A stretch of 64,000 nt of DNA from Eutreptiella sp. 'Long Island Sound 2002' (Eukaryota; Euglenozoa; Euglenophyceae; Eutreptiales; Eutreptiaceae): positions 48,103,843-48,167,842 of the forward strand of contig OZ038384.1 in assembly GCA_964036045.1 (NCBI GenBank), in the 5' to 3' direction. Below are positions 200 to 28,819 of this stretch, in pieces; within the stretch, counting starts at the first letter, position 1, and every line of letters begins with the position of its first letter. A program made the position numbers and the translations under genes. Below the pieces are notes generated by a model. It saw only the letters and a program-made list of their open reading frames with translations. It made no database searches and had not been told where the DNA came from.

Positions 200-3100
200 A
201 GCCCGCCCAGAGGGCGGGCAGCAGGGAAGAGGGGGCGCCTGAACCCAGACGCTCCCCGCCACCCCCGTGGCGCGCAGCCCCCCACAGGGCACGCGGGCCA
301 CAGGGCCGATGCAGGGCCCCCATGCCCGCACACCCGCCGGGGGAGGGGGAGCGCCTGACCCCAGACGCCCCTCCCAACGGCGAACGGCAACCCCCCGGGG
401 ACGCCCTTCCGCGACCCCCACGGCGCGCATTGCCGGCCCGCAATGGCGCGCCCCGTGGGGCCGGTGCTGGGTCCCCACGCCCACACCAACCGCACCTGGG
501 ACACACGGGTCGCGGAACCTTGGCTGCTTGACCCAGAGGATGGGCGGCCAGGGGAGGGACAGCGCCTGACACCAGACGCCCCTCACAACGCTGGCAAGCC
601 ACCCCCCCCAGGAACGGCCCCCACCGCCCCGCGGCACGCAACGCCCACAGGGCATGCAGGCCAAGGGACAGTGTTGGGCCCACACACCCACACACCCGCG
701 CCAACAGCATGTGGGTGACGGACCCCAACAGCCCGCCCAGAGGGCGGGTAGTCGGGGGAGGGGGAGCGCCTGACCTCAGACAACCCTCACAACGGCGGAA
801 GGCACCCCCCCCGGGGACGCCCTTTGGCCACCCCCACAGCGAGCAACGCCAGCCCGCAGGGGCGCACGCTGTGGGGCCGGGGCTGGGTCCCCATGCCCGC
901 ACCGACCGCACCCGGGACACACGGGACGCGGAGCCCCGGCTTCCCGCTCCAGAGGACGGGCGGCCAGGGCAGGAACAGCGCCTGACACCAGACGCCCCTC
1001 ACAACGGTGGCAGGCCAGCCCCCCGGGGACGCCCCCCCCCCACCCCCGCGGCACGCAGCCCCCCCAGGGCATGCAGGCCAACGGGACAGTGTTGGGCCCC
1101 CACACCCACACACCCGCGCCCACAGCACGTCGGTGGCGGACCCCAACAGCCCGCCCGGTGGGCGGGCAGTTGGGGGAGGGACAGCGCCTGACCTTCGACA
1201 GCCCTCACAATGGTGGAAGGCAACCCCCCCGGGGACGCCCTTCCGCCACCCCCACAGCGAGCAACGCCGGCCCGCAAGGGCGCACGCTGTGGGGCCGGTG
1301 CTGGGTCCCCACGCCCGCACAGACCGCACCCGGGACACAGCGGTCGCGGAACCCCGGCCGCCCGCTCCAGAGGATGGGCGGCCAGAGGAGGGACAGCGCC
1401 TGACACCAGACGCCCCTCACAACGGTGGCAGGCCAACCCCCCCGGGGACAGCCCCCAACCACCCCCGCGGCACGCAGCCCCCACAGGGCATGCAGGCAAA
1501 GGGGACAGTGTTGGGCCCCCACACTCACACATTCGCGCCCACAGCACGTGGGTGGCGGACCCCAACAGCCCGCCCAGTGGGCGACCAGTGGGGGCAGGGA
1601 CAGCACCTGACCTCGGACGACCCTCACAATGGTGGAAGGTACCCCCCCTGGGACGCCCTTCCGCAACCCCCACAGCGAGCAATGCCGGCCCGCAAGGGCG
1701 CTCGCTGTGCGGCCGGTGCTGGGTCCCCACGCCCACCACGGACCGCACCCGGGACACACGGGTCGCGGAACCCTGGCTGCCCGCTCCAGAGGGCGGGCAG
1801 CCGGGGGAGGGACAGCGCCTGACACCAGACGCCCCTCACAACGGTGGCAGGCCACCCCCCCGGGGACGGCCCACCGCCACCCCCGCGGCACGCAGCCCCA
1901 ACAGGGCATGCAGGCCAAGGGGACAGTGTTGGGCCCCCACACCCACACACCCGCGCCCACAGCACGTGGGTGGCGGACCCCAACAGCCTGCCCAGTGGGC
2001 GGGCAGTGGGCGGAGGGACAGCGCCTGACCTCAGACGCGCCTCACAATGGTGGAAGGCACCCCCCCCAGGGGCGGCCCTTCCGCCACCCCCACAGCGAGG
2101 GACGCAGGCACGCAAGGGCGCACGCTGTGTAGCTGGTGCTGGGTCCCCACGTCCGCATCAACCGCACCCGGGACACACGGGTCGCGGAACCCTGGCTGCC
2201 CGCTCCAGAGGACAGGCGGCCGGGAGAGGGACAGCGCCTGACACCAGACCCCCCTCATAACGGTGGCAGGCCACCCCCCCCGGTGACGGTCCCCCACCAC
2301 CCCCGTGGCACCCAGCCCCCACAGGGCATGCAGGCCAAGGGGACAGTGTTGGGCCCCCACACCCACACACCCGAGCCCACAGCACGTGGGTGGCGGACCC
2401 CAACAGCCCGCGCAGTGGGCGGGCAGTCGGGGGAGGGACAGCGCCTGACCTCAGACGCGCCTCACAATGGTGGAAGGCACCCCCCCCGGGGACGCCCTTC
2501 CGCCACCCCCACAGCGAGCAACGCCGGCCCGCAAGGGCGCACGCTGTGGGGCCGGTGCTGGGTCCCCACACCCGCACCTACCGCACCTCGGACACACGGG
2601 TCGCGGAACCCCGGCTGCCCGCTCCAGAGGACGGGCGGCCGGGGGAGGGACAGCGCCTGACACCAGACGCCCCTCACAACGGTGGCAGACCAGCACCCCC
2701 GGGGACGGCCCCCCCACCACCCCCGCGGCACGCAGCCCCCACAGGGCATGCAGGCCAAGGGGACAGTGTTGGGCCCCGGCACCCAAACACACGCGCCCAC
2801 AGCACGTGGGTGGCGGACCCCAACAGCCCGCGCAGTGGGCGGGCAGTCGGGGGAGGGACAGCGCCTGACCTCAGACGCCCCTCACAATGGTGGAAGGCAC
2901 CCCCCCTGGGGATGCCCTTCCTCCACCCCCACAGCCAGCAACGCCGGCCCGCAAGGGCGCATGCTGTGGGGCCGGTGCTGGGTCCCTACGCCCGCACCGA
3001 CCGCACCCGGGACACACGGGTCGCGGAACCCCGGCTGCCCGCTCCAGAGGACGGGCGGCCAGGGCAGGGACAGCGCCTGACACCAGACGCCCCTCACAAC

Positions 3101-4436
3101 GGTGGCAGACCAGCACCCCCGGGGACGGCCCCCCCACCACCCCCGCGGCACGCAGCCCCCACAGGGCATGCAGGCCAAGGGGACAGTGTTGGGCCCCGGC
3201 ACCCAAACACACGCGCCCACAGCACGTGGGTGGCGGACCCCAACAGCCCGCCCAGTGGGCGGGCAGTCGGGGGAGGGACAGCGCCTGACCTCAGACGCCC
3301 CTCACAATGGTGGAAGGCACCCCCCCCGGGGACGCCCTTCCGCCAACCCTACAGCCAGCAACGCTGGCCCGCAAGGGCGCACGCTGTGGGGCCGGTGCTG
3401 GGTCCCCATGCCCGCACCGACCGCACCCGGGACACACGGGTCGCGGAACCCTGGCTGCCCGCTCCAGAGGACGGGCGGCCGGGGGAGGGACAGCGCCTGA
3501 CACCAGACGCCCCTCACAACGGTGGCAGGCCAGCCCCCCCGGGGACGGCCCCCAACCACCCCAGCGGCACGCAGCCCCTACAGGGCATGCAGGCCAAGGT
3601 GACAGTGTTGGGCCCCCAAACCGACACGCCCGCGACCACAGCATGTGGGTGGCGGACCCCAACAGCCCGCCCATTGGGCGGGCAGTTCGGGGAGGGGGAG
3701 CGCCTGACCACAGACGCTTCTCACAACGGTGGAAGGTACCCCCCCGGGAACGCCCTTCCGCCACCCCCACAGCGAGCAACGCCGGCCGGCAAGGGCGCAC
3801 GCTGTGGGGCCGGTGCTGGGTCCCAACACGTGCACTGACCGCACCCGGAACACACGGGTCGCGGTACCCCAGCCGCCCGCTCCAGAGGACGGGCGGTCGG
3901 GGGAGGGACAGCGCCTGACACCAGACGCCCCTCACAACGGTGGCAGGCCGTCCCCCCCCGGAGACGGCCCCCACCACCCCCGCGGCAGGCAGCCCCCACA
4001 GGGCGTGCAGGCCAAGGGGACAGTGTTGGGCCCCCACACCCACACGCCCGCGCCCACAGCACATGGGTAGTGAACCCCAACAGCCCGCCCAGTAGGCGGG
4101 CAGTCGGGGGAGGGGGAGCGCCTGACCTCAGACGCCCCTCCCAACGGTGGAAGGCACCCCCCCCGGGGACGCCCTTCCTCCACCCCCACAGCCAGCAACG
4201 CCGACCCGCAAGGGCGCACGCTGTGGGGCCGGTGCTGGGTCCCCACGCCCGCACCAACCGCACCCGGAACACACGGGTCGCGGTACCCCAGCCGCCCGCC
4301 CGAGAGGACGGGCGGTCGGCAGAGGGACAGCGCCTGACACCAGACGGCCCTCACAACATTGGCAGGCCACCCCCCCCCGGGGACGGCCCCCCACCACCCC
4401 CGCGGCACGCAGCCCCCACAGGGCGTGCAGGCCAAG
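200..4436 (+). repeat. Tandem array of ~420-bp dimeric units (about 10 copies)
   Basis: The phrase ctcacaatgg recurs at 2461, 2881 and 3301, giving an exact 420-bp step. Each 420-bp unit holds two related ~210-bp halves: one with the cagcgagcaacgccggccc type of segment, the other with cagggcatgcaggccaa. The first half is the monomer that fills LINE F's array. The plus strand is very poor in T, which removes most stop codons and creates long open frames in several phases on both strands. None of these frames is a credible gene. Likely role, by analogy with monomer arrays at the 5' ends of mouse L1 elements, is a repeated promoter. Confidence 0.85.
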
Positions 4437-4905
4437 CCAGGTAGGGAGGAACCGAGACCAGACTGCATCCCCCCCAAGCACGCAAGACGGAGCAAGGGAC
4501 CGGGGCAGGACACGCGGAGGGGCACGGACCACGTGGAACGGCCCTCGCAGCGCCCAGTGCCGGGACCGCGCGAGGTGCGCACGCCACACCACCCAGGGTG
4601 GGGGGGAGCGGACGCCGCGGGAGCGCGAGCGCACACACACGCAAAGGGCACGCAGGGACTACCTGAGGGGCAACCAGACCGAGCTGGTTGATGCACTGAC
4701 CGGGGAGTGGCGAGACGGGGAAGCCGGGGAGGGACGGGGCTCCGAGCCCTGTGAACCCGGGGGACTGCGCCACCAGGCAGGAGGTGCGTCTTGGAGGGCC
4801 CCCCACTAGGATCCGGTGGGGAGCATATCACCTGGCCCGACCAGGTGGCCCCCCGGGGCCGAAAAGCGTCTAGTACCCGCAAAATCAAACCTCAAACCTC
4901 AAACC
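4437..4905 (+). other. 3' segment with (CTCAAAC)n-type tail
   Basis: Unique GC-rich sequence follows the last repeat and ends in about three heptamers of the type ctcaaac (4884-4905), directly before element B LTR sequence. A short tandem-repeat tail instead of poly(A) is typical of several LINE and SINE families. No conserved protein domain is visible. I infer that this is the 3' UTR used for recognition by a LINE reverse transcriptase. Confidence 0.5.
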
Positions 4906-4976: not shown

Positions 4977-6070
4977 TTGAGCTTTGGTGGCCACCACTGT
5001 CGCACGTTCAGGAAAAAGGGATTTTTTTCTTGGCCTCCCCTCGGTTTCCACACCCACTTTAAAATACCTATAGCTTCCCTAACACTGGAAAGGAGCACTT
5101 TACCATGGCCAGCAACTCTTGCTGCATTGTTAATGACAATTTCCAACAGAAAGCTCAGCGCTCCTGGCGCTGCAGGGGCTCCTGTGGCTTGTTGGGGTTA
5201 GAATAGGGCATGCCAAGACCATATGCATTTGCATCCCTCCCTCCAAGCTGAAGCGTAACACAGCCCCACGCCAGACTCTCATAGGACGCTCGACCCAAGT
5301 CTCGTGGAACCTGATGGAGACATCAGTCCTGGTACTTGGGCGAGGGTGCGCTGATTGAATTAGAATTGCCCTTGGGGGGGTCTTGGTTCTGGTTCAGTCT
5401 CCTGCTGCTGCTTTTCGGCCCGAAGAGCGGCCTACTTAGCGAGGCTTTGCGAGCATACCTGTACAACGGGGGAATGGGAGGATGAGAGCTGAATCCACGC
5501 AAACGCGAAGCGACAACACCTAAGTCCGTGAAATGACGGCCTATAATTTTTGTGAAAGCACTTACCTGAACAGAATCCATTTATGCATCAGATGCACATT
5601 TTGATAAAATCTGTAGTCATCTCTTGAAGTTTTCAATCAAGAAATTCTTACGCAGAAAAAGGCGGCGCGCAGGAGCGGGTCCTAGCGAAGCGCCAGAAAA
5701 TAAAGATTTAATAAGATGATAAACGCATGTTACGTATAATGACAAACATGACGAGACATACATTAATAAAAAACCATAAAGTTCTCACCCACACTGCCAG
5801 AAAGAATTCAAGATTCAAGAATTCAAAAAGCAACAGAAGGACTTCAATGAATCAGGTAGAAACCACAGGTGTGCTCGTCTTGTATGCAGCATGCACATTG
5901 CTCGTCTCGTGTCCCCGTGAACGTGCCTGGTAGCAGCGCTAACAAACAATAGAGGGGAAGATTAGAAGATTGCAGATGATTGGAGGTTAGTCCGGGGTGA
6001 TTAGACATACACACATATGCATAGCGTCGTTTCTCCCTTGTGTCTCGCTTTTCCCTCACCTTGCTTCACT
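4977..6070 (-). other. 3' noncoding region of element B, outer part
   Basis: Stop-rich mixed-composition DNA between B's polypurine tract and the conserved structured block. I see no protein domain. The short open frames here have no recognisable features. Confidence 0.45.
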
Positions 6071-6826
6071 CCCCAGCGGTGAGTAAGGTAGGTAAGCAGG
6101 GGTGGGGCCATCCCCTGGTGGAGTTCGTGATTGTGGGTAAGATTTGTAGGAAAAAGGAAGAGATGGGAAAAGGTTGTCACAGACTCGTACATGCTCGTGC
6201 ATTCATACACGCATCAAAGGGTAGGCCACGCGTGGTGCGCTCGGTACAACCCTTGTTTAGGTTACCCAGGGGCTCCACCCCCTGTTCTATAAGAGAACGG
6301 GTGGAGTTCCTTAAGCTTGCTTGCTTGTACTGAGGTTTGACGGCAGTGTATTATAGGGCTACCTGAGAAGCGTATAATACGTGGAGGTAGTCTTGGTTCC
6401 TTAGCCGCAAACCTCAGTCATTTGCCTTTGCTTTACAGGTGGGAAGGTCAGGATGAAGTGGTGCAGTCTCAAGCCGTGCTAACATATGCGGCACTGATCA
6501 CACAAACAACAAGCTGCGACTCAGCCAGGATAGCAAGCGCAGCCCGACATCTCCAACATTCACGCTGTGCAAGCCAAAAGAGCACCCCTTCCCTTCAAGC
6601 CCTAGCAGGGAAACGCGTTGTGGTGTCCCTGTTAGGCCACAGAAGCTTAGTAGCTCTGTGTTTTCTTGCCATCTCAGAGCTGAGCTGCTAGGGCTCGTCT
6701 CTTCTTCTTCACCGCCACCCAGTAGAGCGTGCGTGTAGAAGTGGTAGTCCTGAGTGGGGGCTTGAGCCAGTTGCTGAAGTGCTCGCCAAGCAGGATGGTG
6801 CCACTGTAGGGTGTGTAGGACCTGTA
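6071..6826 (-). other. Conserved structured 3' noncoding block of element B (copy 1)
   Basis: Aligns with 8692-9460 in the 3' noncoding region of element A. Shared landmarks include gagtaaggtaggtaag, ggttacccagg, ccttaagcttgcttgctt, the GTATTATA/TATAATAC pair, agcaccccttccct and ctgttaggccacag. The block is cut at 6826 by insertion of element A, and its continuation lies at 18495. It lies after the chromodomain stop and before the polypurine tract, the position where retroviral RNA export or packaging elements can lie. No coding frame is shared between the copies, so conservation is at the nucleic-acid level. Confidence 0.6.
6273..6418. ncRNA. Candidate structured RNA core, copy 1
   Basis: Helices seen in the sequence: H1 6273-6280 with 6299-6306, H1b 6284-6288 with 6294-6298, P1 6329-6338 with 6409-6418, P2 6348-6355 with 6373-6380, P3 6359-6364 with 6385-6390. 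P2 and P3 interleave, so they form a pseudoknot or two alternative hairpins. All pairs are Watson-Crick. Copy 2 in element A keeps all five helices in the same register with 11 compensatory pair changes. The element transcript would be the minus strand, but pairing alone does not fix the strand. It matches no ribozyme consensus I can recall. Confidence 0.55.
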
Positions 6827-6831
6827 GTGCG
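6827..6831. repeat. Target-site duplication of element A (partner 18490-18494)
   Basis: gtgcg directly precedes the left LTR and directly follows the right LTR. Five base pairs is the usual size for Ty3/gypsy integrase. Removing one copy plus element A restores continuity of element B's 3' noncoding block. Confidence 0.85.
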
Positions 6832-7541
6832 AGAAATATGTCCTTGATTAGTGCCCTGGATATTTTGATGAAGTCCTGCAGGTTTTGAAGTTGAAAACCC
6901 AAACCAAAGCAGCAAGTAGAGCAAGAACAGGATGTGGATCGAATCAATGAATAGTTTTGAAATCCAATGTAACACAGAAGGGCTGCAGATAGACAAAGCA
7001 GGTATAAACACAAAGATTCAATCACAAATGGATAATACAAAAGATTTTATATGAAAACTGGTCTGACTCTTGCCTCCAAGATAGCATCAAGCACTTCATG
7101 TGCACTTTTTTGGGTGAAATGGTGCTGGTTAGGAATGTGGGGCATTGATGTCAGGCCAACACAGAAAATGACTTGGCCAAGCAACTGAATTCAGAAACAG
7201 TTAAAAGGTAGAACCACAATAAGTGGTAGAAACAATTGAGTATAGGGGTCTTGGGGTGGGAGACCACTAGGCTTAACCTCCAAGGCCTAAAGCATGAAAT
7301 GCCTATTTTATTTCGGTATATCCTCCATGAAGGAAGGTACCTCCGCTCAGTTGAGTGGCAGGGGAGAACTTCATGGGGGGGCTAGGGTTACAACCCTAGT
7401 TACTCTGAGAGAGTGTACTTTAGGCTTCAAAAGAGAGATAAAAATACTTAAGTTAGTCTTAGCATCAACAAAAGGGTTTTAAGGGGGGCTTGGCCTGGAT
7501 CAAGCCCTCCAAGAAAGACATGGCAGTGACTTTTTCTTACT
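6832..7541 (-). repeat. 3' LTR of element A
   Basis: About 95 percent identical by eye to 17788-18489. In the element sense it starts AGTAAG and ends CTTTCT, a near-perfect 6-bp inverted pair, and lacks the usual TG...CA ends. A TATA-like tract (catataaaat) lies about two thirds of the way along, a plausible promoter. The inner edge joins six G (7542-7547, plus-strand C). Confidence 0.85.
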
Positions 7542-7547
7542 CCCCCC
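7542..7547 (-). promoter_or_regulatory. Polypurine tract of element A
   Basis: Six C on the plus strand directly abut the LTR end cttact. In the element sense this is a G6 tract immediately 5' of the 3' LTR, as expected for the plus-strand primer. Confidence 0.7.
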
Positions 7548-8691
7548 TGGAGTACTAGTTAGCTAAGCTAGTAGGACAAAGGAAAAAGGCTCAAATATTC
7601 CGAAAGATTACCTCAGAAAATGCATCAAACTTACCAGAAACATTCTCATCAGTTCATAGAAGCCTATCACACCGTAGGTACCCTCGAAAAACAGTGTAAT
7701 GTACCGTGAATGATGTCCCTTCGATGGGGCATTCCTCAAAACTCGCCGGCGTGCGACGAAAACGTTTGGTAAAAATTTGGGCATATTGGGGTTCGAACCC
7801 AGGACTCCCTCCCTAGAGCACATATGCTTGCCCACCAGGGTACAGTCCACCGCTCTGATGCGGACGGCTATCGCTGACTAAACAGTGTTTTAGTAAACGT
7901 CCTGACCAAGGGCCAGATCGGAGCAATACTCCCAGTGGAGGACACAAATCTCCAGGAGCTGAAAAAAATAGAAAATGTAACCAACAGGGAGTGATTCCTG
8001 CGGTTTAGCGAAAGGGGTAGCGATTTAACAAGTCAAATCGCTAAAAATTGGAGAAATCACGCGAGAAATCGTCATTTTTACACCAAACCAAAAGTCGCAC
8101 ACAAGCGCAAAGGAAGCAGACTTCAAAAACAAGGTTGCGCAAGCGTAAATGGCTTTTGAAAGAGAAGGTATGAGCCGTAGTTTTTAAAGTTCCAAAGGAA
8201 ATTTTTGCACAGTTGCATCAAAATCTTTATAAACTTTAGGGAAAAGTATTCAAACTCAACCCACATCACAGAGCAGGTGGACAACCCACCTCTCAGGTAT
8301 GCCAGTGTAATCTCTCACGCATGCATTGCGTTTGTGGTGGTTGCTTCGTTAAAGCGTTAGGGTTGTCAACGCTGTATTCGTGGGGGGTTCGGGCGCTCAT
8401 CTCCTTTGCTCTGCATAGGTCAAAACAGGAATGGAAGGTATGCGATGCGAATGGAGCGCGCAGCGCGCACGTAGGGTTAGAATATGCGCTGTGCTCGCTA
8501 TGCATGTGCCTAATTGAGGCATTCACACGCTGTGACGCTTTCGCTGTACCCCAATTCATCCTTGTTCTCTCTTCACAGGTAAGAAAGGAAAGTGTTTGCT
8601 CGTGTAAGGTTGCTTAAAACGCTTAGGCTTGTTTATAACTCGCAATAGGGTTGTTTTGCGTTCGCTTCACTTCGGCATTCACACGATGCAT
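7548..8691 (-). other. 3' noncoding region of element A, outer part
   Basis: AT-richer DNA with many stops in all frames. Apart from the tRNA-like segment at 7775-7860 I see no feature. No counterpart of the B sequence 4977-6070 is obvious, so this part diverges faster than the structured block. Confidence 0.45.
7775..7860 (-). repeat. tRNA-derived SINE head
   Basis: On the minus strand an A-box-like segment (7832-7842, taccctggtgg) is followed about 40 nt later by a good B box (ggttcgaaccc, within 7788-7800). Together these form an internal RNA polymerase III promoter. The flanks do not close an acceptor stem, so this is a tRNA-derived repeat and not a functional tRNA gene. Its right and left limits are not defined. 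Confidence 0.5.
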
Positions 8692-9460
8692 GGTGAGTAA
8701 GGTAGGTAAGCCAAGGAGGAGCTCACCTCCTGGTTGAGTCAGTGTGGTTATGGTTCCGCCTCCCTTCCCTGCATGTGTGCACACGATGCATTAAAGGGAT
8801 TTGACAGTAGGCCACGCGCTGTGCACGCGGTATGAACCCTTGCCAGGTTACCCAGGGCTTCGCCCTACGTTCCATAAGGGAACGGGCGAAGTCCTTAAGC
8901 TTGCTTGCTTGCAACTGGGTTCAGGAACAGTGTATTATAGGGCACACTAAGAAGCGTATAATACGTGGAGTGTGTCTTCGTTCCTCCGTCTTGAACCCAG
9001 TTCATTGGCCTCTGTTGTACAGGTCGGAGAGGTTCAGGGTGATTGGTGCACGCAGCAGCTGCCTTCGGCGGCTATCCCATTTTTCTGCCCCAGCTAAACA
9101 GGAACGCGGATCACACAATCAATTGACTGCGCCTCAGCCAGGAGTGGGTAGGGCAGTTCGAGTCCTTCGCCATCCGCGCTGTGCACGGAACAAGAGCACC
9201 CCTTCCCTCCAAGCCCTAGCAGGGAAAGGTGTTGTGACGTCCCTGTTAGGCCACAGTTGCTTAGCAGCGCTGTGTTCTCTTGCCTTCTTCACAGGAGGGT
9301 CATTAGGACACGAGACCTCATTGACAGCAACACCAAGTAGCGTGTGTAGGGGCTAGGGTCAGCAGGCCTGGCAGGAGTTGAGTGCAGGTGATGAGTGCTC
9401 ACCCTCCCTCCGAAGGCCGGTGCTGGCGTTAGTGAGTGTAGTGTAGTGGTGTCTCCTGTC
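8692..9460 (-). other. Conserved structured 3' noncoding block of element A (copy 2)
   Basis: Counterpart of 6071-6826. The block continues into 9480-9850, which in turn matches 18530-18890 downstream of element B's chromodomain. So A and B share the whole order: chromodomain stop, tail, structured block. Sequence identity is only moderate, but helix-forming segments are kept. Confidence 0.6.
8858..9002. ncRNA. Candidate structured RNA core, copy 2
   Basis: Helices: H1 8858-8865 with 8884-8891, H1b 8869-8873 with 8879-8883, P1 8913-8922 with 8993-9002, P2 8932-8939 with 8957-8964, P3 8943-8948 with 8969-8974. Spacings inside the P2/P3 interleaved unit (3, 8 and 4 nt) equal those of copy 1. 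P1 differs from copy 1 at five pairs, P3 at three, H1 at two and H1b at one, and each change is matched on the other arm. P2 is invariant. Confidence 0.55.
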
Positions 9461-9479
9461 CCGCGTGCTTTTCCTCGTG

Positions 9480-10246
9480 GGCAGGGGAGTGCGTTAGCTT
9501 TTGGCCTGTAGCAAAAATGGGCATTTTGTATGCCCTTAGCACACTTGGCCACCCTTCCCCTCTAGTAGATAGGGCTTTTGCCGTCTTCCCCCAAGGATAG
9601 GCGCCAGCACAGAAATTGGGCGCCATAGGAGTGGTAATAGTACCTGATTAGGACCTTCGGTCCGACGTCAGCGAAGCCCGGTCTCTCGGAGCCACGCCAG
9701 GGAGAGAAGTGAGACACACACAGACATACGTAGCACACATAGGGGTATGGTAAACCCTGTAAGGAAAGGTAGAACCCCCTGGGTCTGGACCAGTCAGGGG
9801 TCCTAACTGTGGGCTCGCTTGTCCCCAAGGAGGGAAGATACACCTTGCCTCATAACACCTTGCATGTCATTCCCCCCTGCTGTAGTAAGCCACCGTTCTT
9901 CGTTGGCTCCCCAAGGTCATTACATCAGGGCAGTCCCCATGCAACACATGATCAACAAGGCATACACTCGCTGGGTGGCTGCAATCCTGATAAGCGGCCA
10001 CCTGGACCACGCTGGAAACCACAGGCATGGGTCTGCAGGGCACAGACAGGGTCAATGCAGTGCTCAGTAAGCAGTAGTCTGTGAAAAACCAATGGCCTTC
10101 GGCCAGGGAGTGGTTGTCAAGGGGCGCTAACGGTCCTGTCCTGCGATGCAATGCGGGGCAACTGTGACAACTGCTCTTACACCCATACACAGGCACGTCT
10201 GCAGAAGAGTGCTCAATGCACCTGTCAGTAGACTGACACAGAGAAA
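9480..10246 (-). other. Post-chromodomain tail of element A
   Basis: 9480-9850 is similar to 18530-18890 of element B. Both contain ggcgc(c)agcacagaaa followed by tgggcgc, a stretch that may form a stem. 9850-10246 holds no domain and no shared motif that I can see. Confidence 0.45.
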
Positions 10247-11362
10247 TTAGTTTCGCTTTTTACGCTGAGACATAGTCTCAGCACGGGTTAGGAGCTGCCC
10301 CTCGTTGTTCTCAACGAGGTAGGTGCGGAAGATGGGGTTGATACTCCCGTCTGGTTGTATGAAGGCTGACATAGGTTCCCAGGTCGCCTCAGATAACCCA
10401 TAGCCATCCCACAGGGTTAGGAATTTCCAGCCCTGTTTATACTCGTGGCGAGCAATACCTGCAACCACGTGGTAACCATCGACTGCCATCTCATTGGCAG
10501 TCATCTCTTCAAGTTCGTCTGCCTTCTCTGGACTCGCAGCGTTCTCTAGGTCTATACGCTCGACCTCACTGTCGCTGAGGCGCCACTCATCCCAAGACAA
10601 ATCGTCAGGGGAGTGATAGTGCCTCAACTGTTTAGGTGCACACAGCAGTTCACCACCTAGACGTGGACTGCACCTGACATGGATCCTGGATCCATCTATC
10701 CTGATTATACAATAGAGTCCAAAATAAGGGTCCTGTAGGCAGTTACGTGGCCAGGAGGGTAGGCGTGAATGGTGTACTAAAACAAGGTCACCAACCTTGA
10801 AGCTGGCAGGTTGCCGTAGGCGGTTCTGTCGGCTCAGTTCACGGTCACAAATGTGTCTCAGGTTAGTCCGAGCCTGGTTAGCCAGAGACTGCTTGTGTTC
10901 CAGCCAATCTCCCACAGGGCTCTTGAAGTCCTCAGGAAAGGGGCTTTTGAAGAACCAAGCAGGTCGTCCTCCATGGAACAGTTCGTGGGGGGTGAAAACC
11001 CTAGAAGAGCTCCGCTGTGAGTTCATGGTGAACACTGCCCAGAGCACTAGGCGTACCCAGTCCTTGGTACGCTCCTGTTTGATCAGGATTCTTAAGTTTT
11101 GCTCTACCACACGGTTCTGTCTCTCACAGAGAGGGTTCGGCGTGTGGGTATAGGGCACACCTGTGGTTACCTCCACGTTGAGTGCATTTAGCACCCGTTT
11201 GTACCACCCAGTGTCACTGCGGATGCGTACATCCTCATCAGAGTGCACCTGCCTAGGTGCTCCATAGGGTTCGAACCATTGTTCGACCAACATTTTCACA
11301 GTCTGCTCACCTGTGATTTTTTTTATTGCAAGGGAACACACAGGTGAAGCGAGATAGGCCAC
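10247..11362 (-). pseudogene. Integrase C-terminal part and chromodomain of element A
   Basis: The frame begins inside the integrase core. Visible are the second catalytic aspartate region (HSDEDVRIRSDTGWYKRV) and the catalytic glutamate region (PNPLCERQNRVVEQNLRI). A GPY/F-like module follows (YFGLYCIIRIDG), then a C-terminal chromodomain (YHVVAGIARHEYKQGWKF, then WDGYGLSEATWEP). Chromodomains of this class direct integration to particular chromatin. The first part of the integrase lies in another frame at 11307-11525, so a frameshift separates them. The element cannot make an intact integrase. Confidence 0.8.
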
Positions 11363-11525
11363 AGGTGCCCACTAGGCAACTATCATAGCCGCCAAAGCCT
11401 GGTAGGCCGTGGATGAAATTCACGTAGAGAAGAGAGTTAGCACAGTAGGGTATGGGTAAGCTGGAGATCAGGCCCCTATCCCTACTGTCGCTTTGCTTGC
11501 TGGCATGACAGCCACAAGCATCCAC
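11307..11525 (-). pseudogene. Integrase core fragment of element A
   Basis: Encodes the stretch around the first catalytic aspartate, with RDRGLISSLPIPYCAN and GGYDSCLVGTCGLSRFT. It aligns with RDRGLYSALLIPHCAN and GYDFALVVTCGLTRFT in element B. The equivalent aspartate appears as asparagine in VNFIHGLP (B has LDYTEMP). It is separated from the HHCC end by the insertion at 11545-11965. Confidence 0.65.
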
Positions 11526-11544
11526 AATGCACCTATGATTTTAG

Positions 11545-11965
11545 CAGCTGTCTTTTCCCAAAATTCAAAAAGTCAGCAAAAAGGGGTTTTTTGCGGGAAA
11601 TGACCTGTGTCTTTGGTTTCTAAGGCCCCAAAATAGGGGGAGGGGGTCCTCTTACCCGAACGTTGTCCAAAAATATCAAAAACTCCGAAATTTGGCCCAT
11701 TTTGGGGTATTTTTGCCTGCTCTGGGCTGGTCCTGCAGAACAGTGCTGCACACCAGTGTCCCTGCCTATAGAGGATTTGCGACAGAAATTCCAATTTTCT
11801 TTGGATTCTCTGGCCCCAAAATAGGGATAGGGGGGTTCCTCCCACCCGAGCTTTCTCCCAAACCATCAAAGACCCTGGAATTCGGCCTATTTTGGAGTAT
11901 TTTTGTCTGCTCTGGGGTGGTGCAGCAGAACAGTGCTGCACACCAGTGTACCTGTATAGTATAAT
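11545..11965. repeat. ~420-bp insertion in integrase, made of two ~188-bp direct repeats
   Basis: The phrase ggccccaaaatagg occurs at 11624 and 11812, and gtgctgcacaccagtgt also occurs twice, giving a 188-bp step. The segment interrupts the integrase of element A relative to element B. I could not define a target duplication, and no coding domain is present. Confidence 0.6.
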
Positions 11966-12058
11966 ATAGGCACGCAAAAACCGGTCTGCATACGCGACCT
12001 CAGTTCAGTCAGGGTTAGACTGGAGTAGAAACACTCACGGAAGAGATCCACTGAGCGA

Positions 12059-14302
12059 TTAGCGCCAGTGTGACCAGAACTGAGACCACTGTAGGCACCC
12101 ATCCTGTCTTGCCTCAGGCACCACAATTCGGTCCTCGTAGAGGAGGTACTGATTGTTTTTATACCACTGGTGCCCGTCAATGACACGGGGTTCGAGACCA
12201 GTGCTGAGGGTTTGGAGAATTTCTTTATACTCTGACTGATAGTCGGTTAGACCCCAACCCCCCAGGATTCCAGCAGTGCGCATGGACAGGTCAAGGTGGA
12301 CATCCATACGCTGGAAAGCCTCTCTGGCGAGCGCCTCAGAGCTCTCACCTATAAGCGCATCGAAGTTGTTGCGCGATATATAGTCAGACAGTTCATTCTT
12401 TATTCCGGGGATATGATGCACTGTCAGCCTGCACTGGCTCAGGTAAGTCCACCACCGCTTTAGCTTTGCTTTCTCTGGTGGTGGGCCCTTCTGAAAAGAC
12501 TTCACAGGCTCCTGGCCACACAGCCAGACAATAGGGTTAGATCCCAGGAGTCGGGATTGTGACGAAAGCACGAACATACCGGCCAGGAGTTCCTGGTCAT
12601 AGGTGCTGTAATTGGAACGCGCTTGGTTCCATTTCCAATTCCAGTGTCCCAGTGGCACCAGTCGCCACTCACTGGTAGGATAGTCATGTTTCAACGAACC
12701 ATCACAGTTCAGTCCATTCGTACGATAATGGCAGTGGGTTAGTTCAGCGGGGTTAAGCTCCTGCCATTGGTAGATTGTACCACCCCCCCCTACATCACTG
12801 GCATCAGTGATCAGGACTATCTCGCCCTTAGGGCGGGGTACACCCAGGCAGTTGGAGGAGGCAATCTTCTTCTTCAACTCCTGGAAACACTCTTCCTCTC
12901 TGGTGGTCCACCTCCAGGGAGTAGTTTTCTTGATTAGGTCAGTGAGGGGGGCAGAGGAGTAAGTGAAATTGTGGATGTGACGCCAATAGGAATTACAGGC
13001 GCCCACAAAACTCCTCACGTCGTGTAGACCCTTCTTGGGGTCATCGCGAATCTGCATGTCCTGTAGGGGCTGCATCTTAGACGCGGCTGGTTTCCACCAA
13101 CCATACCCCACGTCGAAACCCAAATACTCCATCTCCTCTTTCATAAACTCACATTTTTGAAGTTTGATTCGGAGATGGTTTTCCTGACAGACAATGAAAA
13201 ATTCACGGAGGAGAAGGACATGGTCCTCTTGGGTATTAGTACCCAAACTCACATCCTCGATGTGAGCCTTCATTTCTGCACCCCGAGAAATCAACTCCTG
13301 TACTAGAGGCCTGCGCCTCAGTATGTAAAAAATTTTGTTTATTAGCTCCTGGAAGAGCGCTGGGGCATTAGCCACCCCGAAAGGCATAACCTTCCATTTA
13401 AAGACACGGCCTTTGATGGTTTTGAAAGCCAGCAGCTCCTGAGCTGCGGCGGTTAGGTCCACCTGCCAGAAACCAGAGCGTTTGTCCATTTTGGTCTTGT
13501 ACCTGCATTTGGCAATACGCTCCAGGGTATTTTCCATGTTAGGAATACTCCCTGAGTGGTTGTGGGTTTTCTTGTTGACCTCACCATAGTCAACAACCAG
13601 TCGTAGGGCAGTCAACCCCGGTTTGGCAACTAGGAAGCAGGGACTGCAGTGATGGGGGTAGTCCCCCTTCTTATATTCTTCAACGAGGCAAGCATCAATA
13701 CATTCCTGGATCTGGCGCTCGAAATCTTCAACCTGTTCCTGTGGAGCGGAATAGGGACGACACTTCACTCGCGTCTTTTCAAATTCAGGTTTCAGTTTCA
13801 GGTCCATCTGGACCAGTTTTTTACAAGAGAGGGGAGGCGGCAAGGCGCCGAACACCTCCTCATAGGTTATCAGCAGTTTCTTCAGTCGGGGGTCAAGGTG
13901 AAGACTCTCGAGTTTCTGCAGGAAATCCTCCTCAGCATGGAGGTTGCTCTTTCCATGTTCTTTCTTTTTCTGCCGATCAGCAGTTTCGGCAGGCACAGAA
14001 CCATCGTCCCACTCAGGGGGACATTGCTGCCCATAGTGCAGAGAATACACTAGCGGTATCTCAGGATCAGGCAGCGTATAGGAATCATCGTCCTCCTCAG
14101 ACCAGATGGAGGATTTCCAGGTCTGTCTGAGGTATTGCAGCCGCTCTTGGCGTTCAATACCTTCGGCCTTAAGGTACAACAGCCGCCGGAGTTCCTGAGT
14201 GTCATGCTCAGACAATGGCATGTTTTTAGAAGCAGGTCGCGCCAGAGCATCAGCACTCCGGACCACAGGTTCACCTGTGTGCATAGACTGCATGTGTAGC
14301 AC
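12059..14302 (-). CDS. RT-RNase H polyprotein segment of element A (catalytically damaged)
   Basis: A 747-residue frame. Residues ~150-260 hold the RT entry region (KLVQMDLKLKPEF, CSPCFLVAKPG, RLVVDYGEVNKK), then MDKRSGFWQVDL (motif A) and VMPFGVANAPALFQ (motif B). The motif C region reads AHIEDVSLGTN, where a gypsy RT normally has YxDD, so the catalytic pair is altered. RNase H follows: TDASDVGGGG, STYDQELLAG, WLCGQEPV and HHIPGIKNELSDYISR. The frame ends just after the start of the integrase zinc region. RT and RNase H copy element RNA into DNA in cytoplasmic particles. The long open frame with a mutated active site suggests fairly recent decay. Confidence 0.85.
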   Translation of the reverse strand: MLHMQSMHTGEPVVRSADALARPASKNMPLSEHDTQELRRLLYLKAEGIERQERLQYLRQTWKSSIWSEEDDDSYTLPDPEIPLVYSLHYGQQCPPEWDDGSVPAETADRQKKKEHGKSNLHAEEDFLQKLESLHLDPRLKKLLITYEEVFGALPPPLSCKKLVQMDLKLKPEFEKTRVKCRPYSAPQEQVEDFERQIQECIDACLVEEYKKGDYPHHCSPCFLVAKPGLTALRLVVDYGEVNKKTHNHSGSIPNMENTLERIAKCRYKTKMDKRSGFWQVDLTAAAQELLAFKTIKGRVFKWKVMPFGVANAPALFQELINKIFYILRRRPLVQELISRGAEMKAHIEDVSLGTNTQEDHVLLLREFFIVCQENHLRIKLQKCEFMKEEMEYLGFDVGYGWWKPAASKMQPLQDMQIRDDPKKGLHDVRSFVGACNSYWRHIHNFTYSSAPLTDLIKKTTPWRWTTREEECFQELKKKIASSNCLGVPRPKGEIVLITDASDVGGGGTIYQWQELNPAELTHCHYRTNGLNCDGSLKHDYPTSEWRLVPLGHWNWKWNQARSNYSTYDQELLAGMFVLSSQSRLLGSNPIVWLCGQEPVKSFQKGPPPEKAKLKRWWTYLSQCRLTVHHIPGIKNELSDYISRNNFDALIGESSEALAREAFQRMDVHLDLSMRTAGILGGWGLTDYQSEYKEILQTLSTGLEPRVIDGHQWYKNNQYLLYEDRIVVPEARQDGCLQWSQFWSHWR

Positions 14303-14335
14303 TGGCTTCCCAACAGGGGAAGCGGGCTCAGAGGT

Positions 14336-14599
14336 TCACTCTAGATCTACATCCTCTAGCAACAGCTGGGCTAGGAAGGCATCGTGTTTTAGGTCAACAC
14401 AGCTAGGATCAACAGGAGGGATAGTGGTGGCGATCTCAGACAGCTGGTCGTCAGCATCCCCCTTTACAGCTGCAGGTTCCAGATAGTCATCGGGAGACTC
14501 ACACCCTGTAAGTGTGGCAGATAGGTGCTCAGGAGATCGGTTTTTGAGATCAGAAAGGGTCAGGCCATGATTTTCGGCCATGACCTCTTTCAGTAGCAC
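14336..14599 (-). pseudogene. Linker segment of element A pol
   Basis: An 87-residue frame rich in acidic residues. It overlaps the end of the protease-methyltransferase frame by 10 nt and stops shortly before the RT frame. In element B the corresponding linker is fused in frame to RT (N-terminal part of 22764-21259). So in A this is probably a piece of the same polyprotein cut off by stops or frameshifts. No catalytic motif is visible. Confidence 0.5.
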
Positions 14600-15474
14600 C
14601 TGGCTAGGTCACACAGGGGTACGTGATTGAGAGATCCATCAAGGATGGACAAGAAACTGGCCCACTCAGGGGCCTGCATAGCTGTGTCTGAGTCCTCAGG
14701 CACATAGATGGGGCAGTCGGGAAGTTGCACTCTTCCCACAATCATTCGATCTAGCATACGGCGCCAGTAAGCAAGTTCACCAGAGCAGCCCCAGTCAGGG
14801 GTGCACATGACAACCCTTCCTGCCTCATAAGCGATTTTGGTTAGAACCTTCGCGAGCAGGGAGAAGGGAGGGTTAGCGTACGCTAGGCCCATTGCTTTCC
14901 AGAACAAACGGAAAGCATTGTTCAATTGTTTCGAGCAGTACAACTGCATGATGTGCTGTTGTTGGCTCGCAAACAATTCCACCTGGACCTCATCCAGGTT
15001 TACCTGAAGGGCCGCCAGTCCATTTTCAAGAACGTGACGGGCAAATTGGTAGTTTTCAGTAGGATAGTTAGTCTTGGATGCGTAGCGCAGCCCAGACTCT
15101 TTTCGTCCTGACAGCTCCAAAGGTATGGAGAACAGCCCACTGCCAAAGTCGCAGTGCAAAGAATAGGGGCGTTGGAGAGACAGCATTTTTACCTGAGGGT
15201 TTCTTTGTAGGAAGTCTGTACCAATGAAGATGTCAAAGGCGTCGGTGTCCAGCACTCTGCAGTGTTGGGTCACGGTTTCGTCGCCCAGGCATATAGTCAC
15301 ATCGACCCCCCCCAAGGAATGGATGGTACGCCCATCTCCTACTCTTACCGCCACGGTCTTAGTTTTCTTGAAAGTCTTTAGCAGGCGCCGGGCCACTATG
15401 GAAAGTGTTGCACCGGTGTCAAGCACCGCTCGAAAAACCCGATCCCCAATTTTTACGAGGATCCAGAAAACCAA
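14590..15474 (-). CDS. Protease plus Dam/DIRS methyltransferase-like domain of element A
   Basis: 294 residues. The retropepsin is at residues ~10-110, with catalytic AVLDTGATLSIV and flap or C-terminal elements such as FDIFIGTDFLQRN. Residues ~150-260 form an extra domain: VELFASQQQHIMQLYCS, then GLAYANPPFSLLAKVLTK, then GRVVMCTPDWG and AYWRRMLDRM. The order FAS, aNPPFs, l.kvl.Ki, vv...PdW, W..ml is that of the Dam-like domain of DIRS elements, where NPPF corresponds to the N6-adenine methyltransferase (D/N)PP(Y/F) box. A Ty3/gypsy element normally goes straight from protease to RT. The protease call is firm. The methyltransferase relation is inferred from motifs, and activity is unknown. 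Confidence 0.7.
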   Translation of the reverse strand: MVFWILVKIGDRVFRAVLDTGATLSIVARRLLKTFKKTKTVAVRVGDGRTIHSLGGVDVTICLGDETVTQHCRVLDTDAFDIFIGTDFLQRNPQVKMLSLQRPYSLHCDFGSGLFSIPLELSGRKESGLRYASKTNYPTENYQFARHVLENGLAALQVNLDEVQVELFASQQQHIMQLYCSKQLNNAFRLFWKAMGLAYANPPFSLLAKVLTKIAYEAGRVVMCTPDWGCSGELAYWRRMLDRMIVGRVQLPDCPIYVPEDSDTAMQAPEWASFLSILDGSLNHVPLCDLARCY

Positions 15475-15498
15475 GTCTTCCTCTTCGGAGCCGCCCCC

Positions 15499-16575
15499 CT
15501 ACTCATCATCAGGGAACATGACATCCACCCCTGCAGCTATGAGGGACCTGGCCATTGTGGCCAAGCGCCTCTTCTTGGAGTTATTCCCCTCAGGGGTAGC
15601 GTTATCCCCCTGGGGGCGCTTCTTGGGATCACCTGCGGCAGGAGGGGGTGTAGCAGCAGGAGAGGGTGTAGCAACGGGCGCTGATGAGCGCCTCTGGGGG
15701 TTAGGGGGTCCATTTTTGCCACCCCCCTTGCCACCTCCTTTACAACCTTCATCCCCATTCTGGGGGTTTTTGGTGGGTGTTTGGGTCTTCTGGCGTTCGG
15801 CCTCCTGACGCTTGAGTTTATCACTCTCGCGTTTCTTTATGTGACATTCGTCTTCGTAGTGATGACTTTTGCCACAATAGCCACAGGTGATTGTACACCT
15901 GAAAGTATCCTGATGGGTCACAGGTTTCCCATGCTTGGTATGCTGCTGTCGTTTCATCTGCAGCATACAGCTACTGCGTTGATTGTCGTCAGGGGCATGA
16001 CAAGGCCCCCCCTTGTCATTGACAGGTTTGCAGTAGAACAAAGGGGGTGTACCTGCCTCAGGTTTAACCTCATTCATGGCACGTAGGTTACCCCTTCCTT
16101 TACCACCTCCCTGGTTGGCGTTAGTGAGATTTTTAGCCCCTTTCCCTTCGCCACGTTCGGGAATTGGGTTACCCCCTCGACCCAAGTGCTTCTGGAGGAA
16201 TTTCTCCATGTGGGAGTCATTCTCCCTCTCAAGAGCTACCTCAATCAGGAGGTCCACCAGTTCATCGTACGAGTGGGTCCGACTCTTTCTCTCAGAAGTA
16301 AAGCGGCAATCATCCCATTTACGTTGGGGTATCTTACTCATGAGCCACAGGTGGGGTTCAGTGGCTCCGTAGGAGCCCACATTTATCCGCGAAAACAGAT
16401 ACTCCAAGTCGCACACGTATTCCGAGATTCGCGCAGCGGATGGAAACTCAGGGAGCATAGGTAGTTCCTCTATCTGTGTGCGCACACTGAGGTCAGTCTC
16501 ATAGACTTGGAACGTTTTCTCCAACCTCTGGAGTACCTCTGCCCAGGTTGAACAGGTTTTCACAATCTGTTTCAC
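15499..16575 (-). CDS. Gag (capsid-nucleocapsid part) of element A
   Basis: 358 residues. The N-terminal half resembles the gag capsid of element B (QVYETDLSVRTQIEELPMLP against PTYETDLSIRAEIQNLVVLP). A CCHC zinc knuckle, CGYCGKSHHYEDEC (C-x2-C-x4-H-x4-C), follows near residue 235, then a basic, proline- and glycine-rich C-terminus (KKRPQGDN, SKKRRLATMAR). Gag packages element RNA in particles. The frame starts inside capsid; the upstream part lies in another frame at 16671-17063, so a frameshift has split gag. Pol begins about 25 nt downstream of its stop. Confidence 0.75.
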   Translation of the reverse strand: MKQIVKTCSTWAEVLQRLEKTFQVYETDLSVRTQIEELPMLPEFPSAARISEYVCDLEYLFSRINVGSYGATEPHLWLMSKIPQRKWDDCRFTSERKSRTHSYDELVDLLIEVALERENDSHMEKFLQKHLGRGGNPIPERGEGKGAKNLTNANQGGGKGRGNLRAMNEVKPEAGTPPLFYCKPVNDKGGPCHAPDDNQRSSCMLQMKRQQHTKHGKPVTHQDTFRCTITCGYCGKSHHYEDECHIKKRESDKLKRQEAERQKTQTPTKNPQNGDEGCKGGGKGGGKNGPPNPQRRSSAPVATPSPAATPPPAAGDPKKRPQGDNATPEGNNSKKRRLATMARSLIAAGVDVMFPDDE

Positions 16576-17770: not shown

Positions 17771-17788
17771 GGACTGCCTCTGCTACCA
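17771..17788 (-). promoter_or_regulatory. Primer-binding site of element A
   Basis: In the element sense tggtagcagaggc directly follows the 5' LTR, with the first T shared with the LTR end. It resembles the initiator-Met PBS (TGGTATCAGAGC) common in Ty3/gypsy elements. Element B has tggtagcaagaggc at the same place, which supports a family-specific primer. Confidence 0.75.
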
Positions 17789-18489
17789 GAAAGATGTCCT
17801 TGACTAGTGCCCTAGATATTGTGATGAAATCCTGCAGGCTTTGAAGTTGAAAACCCAAACAAAAGCAGCAAGTAGAGCAAGAACAGGATGTGAATCGAAT
17901 TCATGAATATTTTTGAAATCCAGTGTAGGGCTGCAGATAGACAAAGCAGGTATAAACACAAAGATTCAATCACAAATGGATAATACAAAAGATTTTATAT
18001 GAAAACTGGTCTGACTCTTCCCTCCAAGATAGCATCAAGCACTTCATGTGCACTCTTTTGGGTGAGATGGTGCTGGTTAGGAATGTGGGGCATAGATGTC
18101 AGGCCAACACAGAAAATGACTTGGCCAAGCAACTGAATTCAGAAACAGTTAAAAAGTAGAACCACAATAAGTGGTAGAAACAATTGAGTATAGGGGTCTT
18201 GGGGTCGGAGACCACTAGGCTTAACCTCCAAGGCCTAAAGCATGAAATGCCCATATTATTTCGGTATATCCTCCATGAAGGAAGGTACCTCCGCTCAGTT
18301 GAGTGGCAGGGGAGAACTTCATGGGGTGGCTAGGGTTACAACCCTAGTTACTTTGAGAAAGTGTACTTTAGGCTTCAAAAGAGGGATGAAAATACTTAAG
18401 TTACTCTTAGCATCGACAAAAGGGTTTTAAGGGGCGCTTGGCCTGGATCAAGCCCTCCAAGAAGAACATGGCAGTGACTTTTTCTTACT
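17788..18489 (-). repeat. 5' LTR of element A
   Basis: Partner of 6832-7541. The outer end borders the target duplication at 18490-18494 and the inner end borders the primer-binding site. Eight bases shorter than the 3' LTR through small indels. Confidence 0.85.
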
Positions 18490-18494
18490 GTGCG

Positions 18495-18882: not shown

Positions 18883-19632
18883 TCAGTCCCTAGCTTTAGT
18901 CTTAGAGGCAAGCGTCCGAGCAAGCCTCAGCAACTCACCAAGGTTGTTCTGGGACAAGTAGTCTACCAGAACTGAGTTTCGGCGTCCCTCAGGAAGAACA
19001 AACGCAGAGAAGGGCTCCCAGGTGACCTCTTCGACTCCAAACCCTTCCCAAAGGGTAAGGAAGCGCCAACCCTGGCGATAGCGGTGGCGTAGAACAGACT
19101 TCACCAGGTAGAAGCCCTCCTTAGCCATCTCCTCGGCGTTCATGTCGGGGTGTTTCCCTTCAACTTCCATAGGGCTGGCAGCCCCTTGTAGGTCTAGGAC
19201 GGCGATTTCCTCGTCGTTCAGCTCCCACTCCTCCCCACAGAGGTCTTCAGGATCAGAGTAGCGCTTCAGGTGTTGGGCAGCGCACACCAGGGTCCCCCCT
19301 AGACGGGAAGAACACCGCAAGGTTATACGGTGTTCATCCACAGATAGAATGTTGTAGGGCCCGAAGTATGGGTCATCGCTGGTAGAGCGTGGCCAGGCGG
19401 GTAGTCGGCTGTGGTGCACCAGCACCCAGTCCCCTTCTTGGTAGGTGGCATGTACTCGGTGCTTGTTCTTCTTGTTCCACTGACGCTCCCTCACTCTCTG
19501 GAGCATAGCCTTGGCCTTTTCCACCTTCGCTTGGTGCTCTTGGACCCACTGACCCACGGAAGAATGGGTGTCTTCTGGATAGGGAGCATGTAGGAACCAC
19601 GCCGGGCGCCCCAGGAATAGCTCATGGGGCAA
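18883..19632 (-). pseudogene. Integrase C-terminal domain and chromodomain of element B
   Basis: 249 residues, opening with MPHELFLGRPAWFLHAPYPE, like TPHELFHGGRPAWFFKSPFPE in A. The region GDWVLVHHSRLPAWPR leads to a GPY-type module (YFGPYNILSVDEHRI). The chromodomain is FYLVKSVLRHRYRQGWRF, then WEGFGVEEVTWEPFSAF, then an acidic-basic tail. A short break with a stop separates it from the catalytic core at 19651. Its role would be chromatin-guided integration. Confidence 0.75.
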
Positions 19633-19650
19633 GTAGCCAGTCGCCGAACT

Positions 19651-20775: not shown

Positions 20776-21073
20776 TTCCTGCTCATAGGTGGAGTAGTTT
20801 CCCCTGGCCTGGTTCCATTCCCAGTTCCAGTGGCCAAGGGGTACTAGGACCCACTTGTCGTCAGTGTAGCTGTGCTTGAGAGTTTCATCTCCCTTGAGAC
20901 CTTCAGTCCCCCATTGGGGAATAGCCGAGACGAAGTCCTCCTACTCTAGTGCTTGCCATTGAAACAACTTTCCACCACGGACCATATTGCTGGCGTCGGT
21001 CACCAGGATAATCTCCCCTTGTGCCCTGGGCACGCCCAAGCACTTAGCGTTTGCCACCTTGTCTTCCAGCTCG

Positions 21074-28800: not shown

Positions 28801-28819
28801 CGGTGTCGCGGCGTGTTGC

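Follow-up and report, generated by a model that had tools for sequence, protein, structure and literature searches.

A covarying RNA fold between pol and the 3' long terminal repeat of Eutreptiella gypsy elements, a candidate antisense intron

The stretch of DNA analysed here (the window) comprises 64,000 nucleotides (nt) from Eutreptiella sp. 'Long Island Sound 2002' (assembly GCA_964036045.1, contig OZ038384.1, positions 48,103,843 to 48,167,842 of the forward strand). It contains two gypsy-family retrotransposons, element A being nested in element B, and each has a conserved structured block between pol and the 3' long terminal repeat (LTR). Covariation among copies makes it nearly certain that the block forms a structured RNA, which is likely antisense to gag-pol. 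As judged from splice-site-like signals on the same strand, there is about an even chance that the block is an antisense intron whose structured core gates the use of its acceptors.

Host elements and the conserved module

Element A is a Ty3/gypsy LTR element, as shown by its LTR pair, the target duplication (GTGCG at both sides, 6827-6831 and 18490-18494), protease, reverse transcriptase and RNase H. Its protease and reverse transcriptase/RNase H frames scored above the Pfam cutoffs. The frames of element B lie at 18883-22764. The integrase-chromodomain ends were weakly recognised, with chromodomain PF00385 at E 0.015 in element A and E 0.01 in element B and the integrase domain rve at E 0.00056 in element B only, all under the Pfam cutoffs. 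A preliminary description of this DNA, made from the letters alone, had placed the block between a chromodomain stop and the polypurine tract. The minus-strand orientation of element A, the LTRs and the placement were borne out, while both chromodomain matches stayed below threshold. Between its reverse transcriptase and integrase-chromodomain frames, element A has a neighbouring direct repeat (11610-11771 and 11798-11959, 82%). The sequence TGGTAGCAGAGG adjoins the 5' LTR on the minus strand (17777-17788) and is primer-binding-site-like, presumably resembling the end of initiator-Met transfer RNA (tRNA).

Blocks A and B were 73% identical over 6221-6674 and 8807-9288. A core pattern occurred twice in the window and never in 100 shuffles, and an anchor-only pattern had 3,971 exact matches in the genome of 2,280,300,865 bases, with none for the reversed control. 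A genome search with A yielded 2,675 first-look candidates and one with B 2,376; 40 of each were scored and were 98-100% identical to A and 96-100% identical to B. In collections that may omit the window's own genome, there was no match to one exact core pattern or to the reverse transcriptase peptide patterns in viral contigs, to a looser core pattern in the genome contigs searched, or by blastn of 8807-9288 in plasmids.

To delimit the A module we used a profile of 14 copies picked mainly for differing flanks. Identity to A was 90-100% over 8801-9010 and 80-100% over most of 8655-8800 in 13 of the 14. Across 9011-9220 it was lower and differed from copy to copy. On the right flank (9371-9460) it dropped to 17-47% in 13 copies, the exception (L019) staying similar; the left flank was near random in eight, and L005 and L019 remained similar there. 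In three copies (L003, L004, L006) the stretch over the integrase end was 85-86% identical and the core 97-100%, a contrast that is partly selection, as the query chose close matches inside 8845-9030. Copy L028, the exception over 8655-8800, begins at about 8756; its module is 96% identical to A over 8756-9282 and dissimilar outside on both sides, possibly by module transfer or as a truncated insert. Among the 27 other copies of the B family, the left edge lay near 5990 in about half, the core (6207-6446) was high in identity, and 6147-6176 and 6507-6566 were variable. The right edge was not seen in this family because similarity persists as far as 6831 in most copies; that of copy B rests only on the end of A/B similarity at 6674 and an acceptor-like site.

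Among 68 loci spanning 2 kb or more, the core could be placed in 56. An integrase-frame match was present in 52 of the 56 and absent from four, and all 52 matches were on the opposite strand to the right of the core, at 798-1368 nt in the 21 listed.

Covariation and strand of the fold

The preliminary description had reported two diverged copies of a fold, at 6273-6418 in B and 8858-9002 in A, with paired arms that change together. Both copies were confirmed, with P1 of 11 base pairs (bp) and P3 extended to 10 bp. A typical A copy folds with 62 pairs and a typical B copy with 59, and 48 are common. Thirteen of these 48 differ between A and B copies, all 13 on both sides; the comparison is built so that no shared pair can appear broken.

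Wider sampling was obtained with two patterns that let P3 vary, requiring exact P2 and fixed P3 positions (237 and 488 exact matches; reversed controls 0), and with two further sets of 20 stretches chosen by eye for variation. Further families were found, with the P3 variants CCATCT with AGATGG, AGCCT with AGGCT, and GGTC... with ...GGCTT. In 71 unique arm sets, drawn from 108 loci whose P2 core was exact (eight lacking it were excluded), the paired percentage of H1, H1b, P1 and P3 was above that of every one of 500 shuffles. Counts of pair types were less decisive, being reached by 7 (H1), 0 (H1b), 18 (P1) and 236 (P3) of 500 shuffles.

The matched changes were upheld in 77 distinct arm sets, which represent 128 of 136 loci parsed. 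In P1, 91.5% of cells were paired (shuffle mean 67.5, maximum 70.8) and 224 cells were two-sided against 71.3. The corresponding values were 96.0% (78.1, 80.9) and 132 against 45.1 for P3, and 95.3% (92.3, 94.0) and 6 against 0.6 for the apical hairpin H4, with two-sided variants such as GGGTA-TAA-TACCT and CCGTA-TAA-TACGG. Unpaired cells amounted to 8.5% in P1 and 4.0% in P3, well under the 32.5% and 21.9% of the shuffles, which covers part of the refutation test that the preliminary description had set. A pair counter run on 23 chosen sequences gave 96.5% paired, a covariation score of 0.280 against 0.083 (reached by 0 of 500 shuffles) and 61 two-sided cells against 18.2. Of 500 shuffles, 27 matched the number of pairs with two-sided change and 65 that of pair types, and helix 4 had no two-sided change in this count. 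Pairing fell to 36-52% when partners were slid. One copy (L128) was left out of the count because its 5' part is unrelated. Although the shuffle statistics ignore relatedness among copies, covariation above both the shuffle and the slide controls strongly supports selection on structure, as had been proposed.

Part of P1 was treated as a paired one-base deletion in smaller alignments; this was dropped for an ungapped P1 of 11 bp, because the larger set fits the ungapped form in most families. In the D family (L105, L111, L118, L129-L131, L133-L135, L146, L147) an extra hairpin is inserted in the P1 5' arm, and its stem varies in matched fashion (GCTGA..TCAGC, GCTGG..CCAGC, GCTGC..GCAGC).

P2 (gtattata with tataatac) had been read as a helix interleaved with P3, that is, as a pseudoknot or two-state switch. 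Its sequence, near-invariance and spacers hold; its pairing is not supported and, on the plus strand, is contradicted by copies with TATAACAC. Over the 77 arm sets none of 616 P2 cells was two-sided, the paired share (98.1%) equalled that of shuffles (98.1%) and ten A.C cells occurred. Exact P2 was a selection criterion for many of these arm sets, so its invariance is partly an artefact of selection; in sets free of it (48 A/B rows and 100 listed anchor matches) two-sided P2 change was likewise not seen. By eye, GTATTATA was exact in 90 of the first 100 of the 3,971 anchor-only matches. The 3' arm was visible in 63 of those 100 and read TATAACAC or TATAACGC in 11, nine of which kept GTATTATA unchanged. 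In the AGACT/AGTCT family every one of the five copies listed had TATAACAC; the change is common to whole groups of copies and breaks P2 on the plus strand. On the sense strand P2 is still pairable, because the TATAACAC changes become U.G pairs there. The two copies in the window cannot test the pairing because P2 is nearly invariant, and the P2 3' arm lies inside the H4 hairpin. An H-type P2/P3 pseudoknot on the plus strand was rejected as unsupported, no pair having changed on both sides, within the limits that near-invariance sets on the test.

Two kinds of evidence bear on the strand. The alignment fold (alifold, 23 sequences) reached -41.7 kcal/mol on the plus strand against -17.6 on the minus strand, and the plus strand folded better in 23 of 23 sequences (mean -71.6 against -57.2, a mean difference for the module of -14.4). 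Over the 77 arm sets, P3 had 161 G.U and 6 A.C cells on the plus strand, and one P3 pair alternates between G.U (56 arm sets), U.G (18) and G-C (3). The counts were 71 and 12 in H4, and 51 and 28 in P1. An RNA antisense to gag-pol is therefore likely.

Splice-site-like signals and a candidate antisense intron

The strand that folds better also carries splice-site-like signals, which were absent from the preliminary description. On it a donor, the fold, a branch-like motif, a pyrimidine-rich tract and an AG acceptor follow one another in what appears to be the conserved order of a GT-AG intron. The tandem donor-like motif GGTGAGTAAGGTAGGTAAG lies 240 nt (copy A) and 270 nt (copy B) upstream of P2. 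It was exact in 14 of 26 copies of other families, where the distance to P2 was 245-270 nt in copies matching at 16 or more of 19 positions; one B-family copy (L050) has GGTAGGTAAGGTAGGTAAG instead. CAGGT was found in 118 of 128 tails, with CAG/GT (the slash marking the junction) 20 nt past P1 and after the pyrimidine-rich tract. The second acceptor-like site of copy A has as its counterpart in copy B CCATCTCAG at 6669-6677. The hairpin H6, whose arm differences match between families as read by eye, is located between the two acceptors. In an alignment of six chosen copies, 14 of 18 donor columns and 10 of 12 columns of the first acceptor were invariant. Around the first acceptor, among 90 parsed tails, CCTTT co-occurred with GAAGG (46) and CCTCT with GAGAGG (24), which may form a stem. 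A textbook-like AG/GT site, TCTTCACAG/GTAAG, was seen at 8570-8583, upstream of the copy A donor.

From the structure, the conservation, the placement and orientation relative to pol and the sequences of these signals, we infer antisense transcription, splicing and gating of the module. The transcript would probably start in or near the 3' LTR and include an intron of 330-360 nt. This intron would begin at tandem U1-type donors (GT at 8693 in A and 6079 in B) and end at YAG/GT (AG ending at 9022 in A and 6438 in B), its 3' half being occupied by H1, the GCTTGCTTG linker and the P1/P3/H4 stem. Through the fold, a branch-point-like UCAU would come to lie at the foot of P1, 18 nt ahead of the end of the AG, and the distance between donor and acceptor would be shortened. 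The fold might gate the first acceptor against the second conserved one, which lies some 270 nt downstream. Since the intron would be antisense, it would not be spliced from the genomic (sense) RNA and so would survive retrotransposition.

More tentatively, and with some doubt, the gypsy lineage may keep an antisense intron in which tandem donors and a branch-point-delivering RNA domain are combined with an AG/GT that serves both as acceptor and as regenerated donor, and with a second acceptor, as in recursive splicing. Recursive splice sites act as zero-length exons. The likeness lies in the pyrimidine-rich tract and CAG/GT at the first acceptor of the module; the donor it would regenerate, GTGGGA, is only moderate.

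In position, the nearest relatives are the antisense genes of the Retand elements of plants, which lie between pol and the 3' LTR and have protein open reading frames (ORFs), mostly TRP28, according to the main text of that report (PMC11963269). The Retand genes are protein ORFs, whereas the module conserves RNA structure, and the words intron, hairpin and secondary structure are absent from the same main text. A conserved antisense ORF was not found in the module: no plus-strand ORF of at least 150 amino acids (aa) overlaps 5997-6831 and the flanks are not conserved, TRP28 itself not having been searched for. The one plus-strand ORF of copy A (8832-9356) crosses the structured block. Searches of the open-access literature brought up no antisense structured intron in an LTR element that we recognised as such.

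If a structured antisense intron is present, the retrotransposon keeps regulated antisense splicing through cycles that erase sense introns, which would offer a direct handle on what the antisense transcripts of LTR elements do. The extended reading would make the module an antisense RNA-processing control device, of which no case for LTR elements was found in that literature search. Thousands of natural variants of a covariation-supported RNA in one genome are suited to a covariance model and to mutational analysis.

Several points weigh against a structured antisense intron. The donor is not outstanding, 90 of 844 windows being equally conserved in the six chosen copies, and a minority of B-family copies have it exactly (9 of 29). 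Donor and acceptor motifs might be bound by U1 or a protein with no splicing involved, and no spliced product is apparent because the would-be exons are not conserved in the chosen A copies. The strand signal is carried by few columns: H1 (13 G.U and 15 A.C cells) and H1b (13 and 8) hold little of it, and P2 points in the opposite direction (2 and 10). In 200 random windows the strand difference in energy averaged -1.1 (standard deviation 8.6, minimum -24.9), so differences of the module's size arise by chance, and the 23 folded sequences are related. With a spread of that size, the strand is better argued from the G.U columns that alternate. Sampling was not random, as DNA queries return the closest copies, and the exact percentages would come out differently under random sampling.

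It is rather unlikely, but deserves weight, that the module is a structured antisense noncoding RNA that acts as RNA, by binding protein or U1, by stability or by competing with the sense RNA, the splice-like motifs being binding sites and any splicing incidental. The same strand and covariation evidence would serve it, and the would-be exons are not conserved. GCTTGCTTG, GTATTATA and AGAAGCGTATAATACGTGGAG are near-invariant while adjoining helices change, which looks like partner recognition (P2 was fixed by the search pattern in some rows). Such an RNA would account less well for the intron order of donor, branch-like motif, pyrimidine-rich tract and acceptors, or for A-type modules ending at the second acceptor.

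The preliminary description had suggested export, packaging or minus-strand self-cleavage, all of which assume sense RNA, and the strand evidence is in favour of antisense RNA instead. A cis element of the genomic RNA, acting in nuclear export like a constitutive transport element (CTE), in packaging or in stability, is improbable. Retroviral export elements likewise sit between pol and the 3' LTR, and P2 can pair through G.U on the sense strand in TATAACAC copies. On that strand, however, the fold is much weaker by the energies given above and worse in every one of the 23 sequences, and the conserved P3 G.U columns turn into C.A mismatches. A reading of the sequence, in which the minus strand was not scanned for splice sites, turned up donor and acceptor motifs on the plus strand alone. 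The module is like the CTE and the RNA transport element (RTE) in being a structured 3' noncoding RNA of an LTR element near splice signals; those elements act in sense genomic RNA, whereas the module folds better and carries its splice-like signals antisense. Nuclear export of Cer1 RNA is the subject of another report (PMC10309623). In Ty3 genomic RNA, structures with possible pseudoknots in GAG and POL were derived from selective 2'-hydroxyl acylation analysed by primer extension (SHAPE) (PMC11381356); this is also structured Ty3/gypsy RNA, but of the sense strand, and the words antisense and covariation are absent from the main text.

A self-cleaving or otherwise catalytic antisense RNA is very improbable. 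The fold is compact and strongly covarying, with invariant unpaired stretches; the pseudoknot is unsupported, however, and Rfam gave no match at gathering score across the window. Over 5900-9500, on both strands and up to E 5, the only hit was mir-22 (E 2.3, far below the gathering score). A tRNA identity was also dismissed, as the tRNA search found none. Retrozymes (PMC4918200) share with the module the spread of structured RNA by retrotransposons and have hammerhead ribozymes; the module matches neither the hammerhead nor any other Rfam ribozyme. A function at the DNA level, with inverted repeats as protein sites or cruciforms, is hardly credible. Matched changes would preserve inverted repeats of DNA too, but several columns switch between G.U and Watson-Crick pairs and there are long one-sided bulges, as would be expected if the molecule is RNA.

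Coordinates and other features of the window

Table 1. Features of the module copies and of element A in the window
Feature	Positions	Strand	Basis
Conserved module, copy A	8655-9294	+	antisense to element A gag-pol; profile of 14 chosen copies
Conserved module, copy B	5997-6677	+	antisense to element B gag-pol; left edge read off 27 further copies of the B family
Tandem 5' splice-site-like motif GGTGAGTAAGGTAGGTAAG, copy A	8692-8710	+	exact in 27 of the 35 A-family copies whose upstream sequence is long enough
Tandem 5' splice-site-like motif, copy B	6078-6096	+	exact in 9/29 B-family copies
H1/H1b bulged hairpin, copy A	8858-8891	+	covariation sets
H1/H1b bulged hairpin, copy B	6273-6306	+	covariation sets
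Near-invariant linker TTAAGCTTGCTTGCTTG, copy A	8895-8911	+	17/18 alignment columns invariant, six chosen copies
Near-invariant linker TTAAGCTTGCTTGCTTG, copy B	6311-6327	+	same six-copy alignment
P1 5' arm, copy A	8913-8923	+	covariation
P1 3' arm, copy A	8992-9002	+	covariation
P1 5' arm, copy B	6329-6339	+	covariation
P1 3' arm, copy B	6408-6418	+	covariation
P2 5' arm GTATTATA, copy A	8932-8939	+	sequence conserved, pairing unsupported
P2 5' arm GTATTATA, copy B	6348-6355	+	sequence conserved, pairing unsupported
P3 5' arm (10 bp), copy A	8939-8948	+	covariation
P3 3' arm, copy A	8969-8978	+	covariation
P3 5' arm (10 bp), copy B	6355-6364	+	covariation
P3 3' arm, copy B	6385-6394	+	covariation
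H4 apical hairpin GCGTA-TAA-TACGT, copy A	8954-8966	+	includes the P2 3' arm of the preliminary description
H4 apical hairpin, copy B	6370-6382	+	covariation
Branch-point-like TTCATT, foot of P1, copy A	9001-9006	+	CAT columns invariant in 23 rows; putative role
3' splice-site-like TTGTACAG/GT, copy A	9015-9024	+	ACAGGT in 36/36 A-family copies
3' splice-site-like CTTTACAG/GT, copy B	6431-6440	+	CAGGT tails
H6 hairpin GCCCTAGCAGGGA...TCCCTGTTAGGC, copy A	9213-9251	+	matched arm differences, six chosen copies, by eye
H6 hairpin, copy B	6599-6637	+	matched arm differences between families, by eye
Second 3' splice-site-like TTCTTCACAG, copy A	9285-9294	+	9/11 columns invariant, six chosen copies; A-type similarity ends here
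Gypsy element A, reading frames	10247-16575	-	protease, reverse transcriptase/RNase H; integrase-chromodomain end at 10247
Putative gag, element A frame	15499-16575	-	by position
3' LTR, element A	6832-7541	-	94% identity to 17788-18489
5' LTR, element A	17788-18489	-	pairs with 6832-7541

Satellite arrays with a spacing of 212 bp occupy 234-4513 and 50701 onward (with a higher period of about 419 bp on the left); their copies are 60-98% alike to the reference, with a guanine-plus-cytosine (GC) content of up to 75%. An array of 65-bp tandem repeats at 26864-28853 (27 listed copies) is open in frames of 558-777 aa. At 60460-62979, in sequence of about 70% GC, a non-LTR-like frame encodes endonuclease and reverse transcriptase domains. 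Protein P0099 was a reverse transcriptase polyprotein, 48% identical, with a precomputed PF05869 domain, which we take to be a Dam-type DNA methylase. TTAGGG repeats were seen at several of the 12 contig ends examined.

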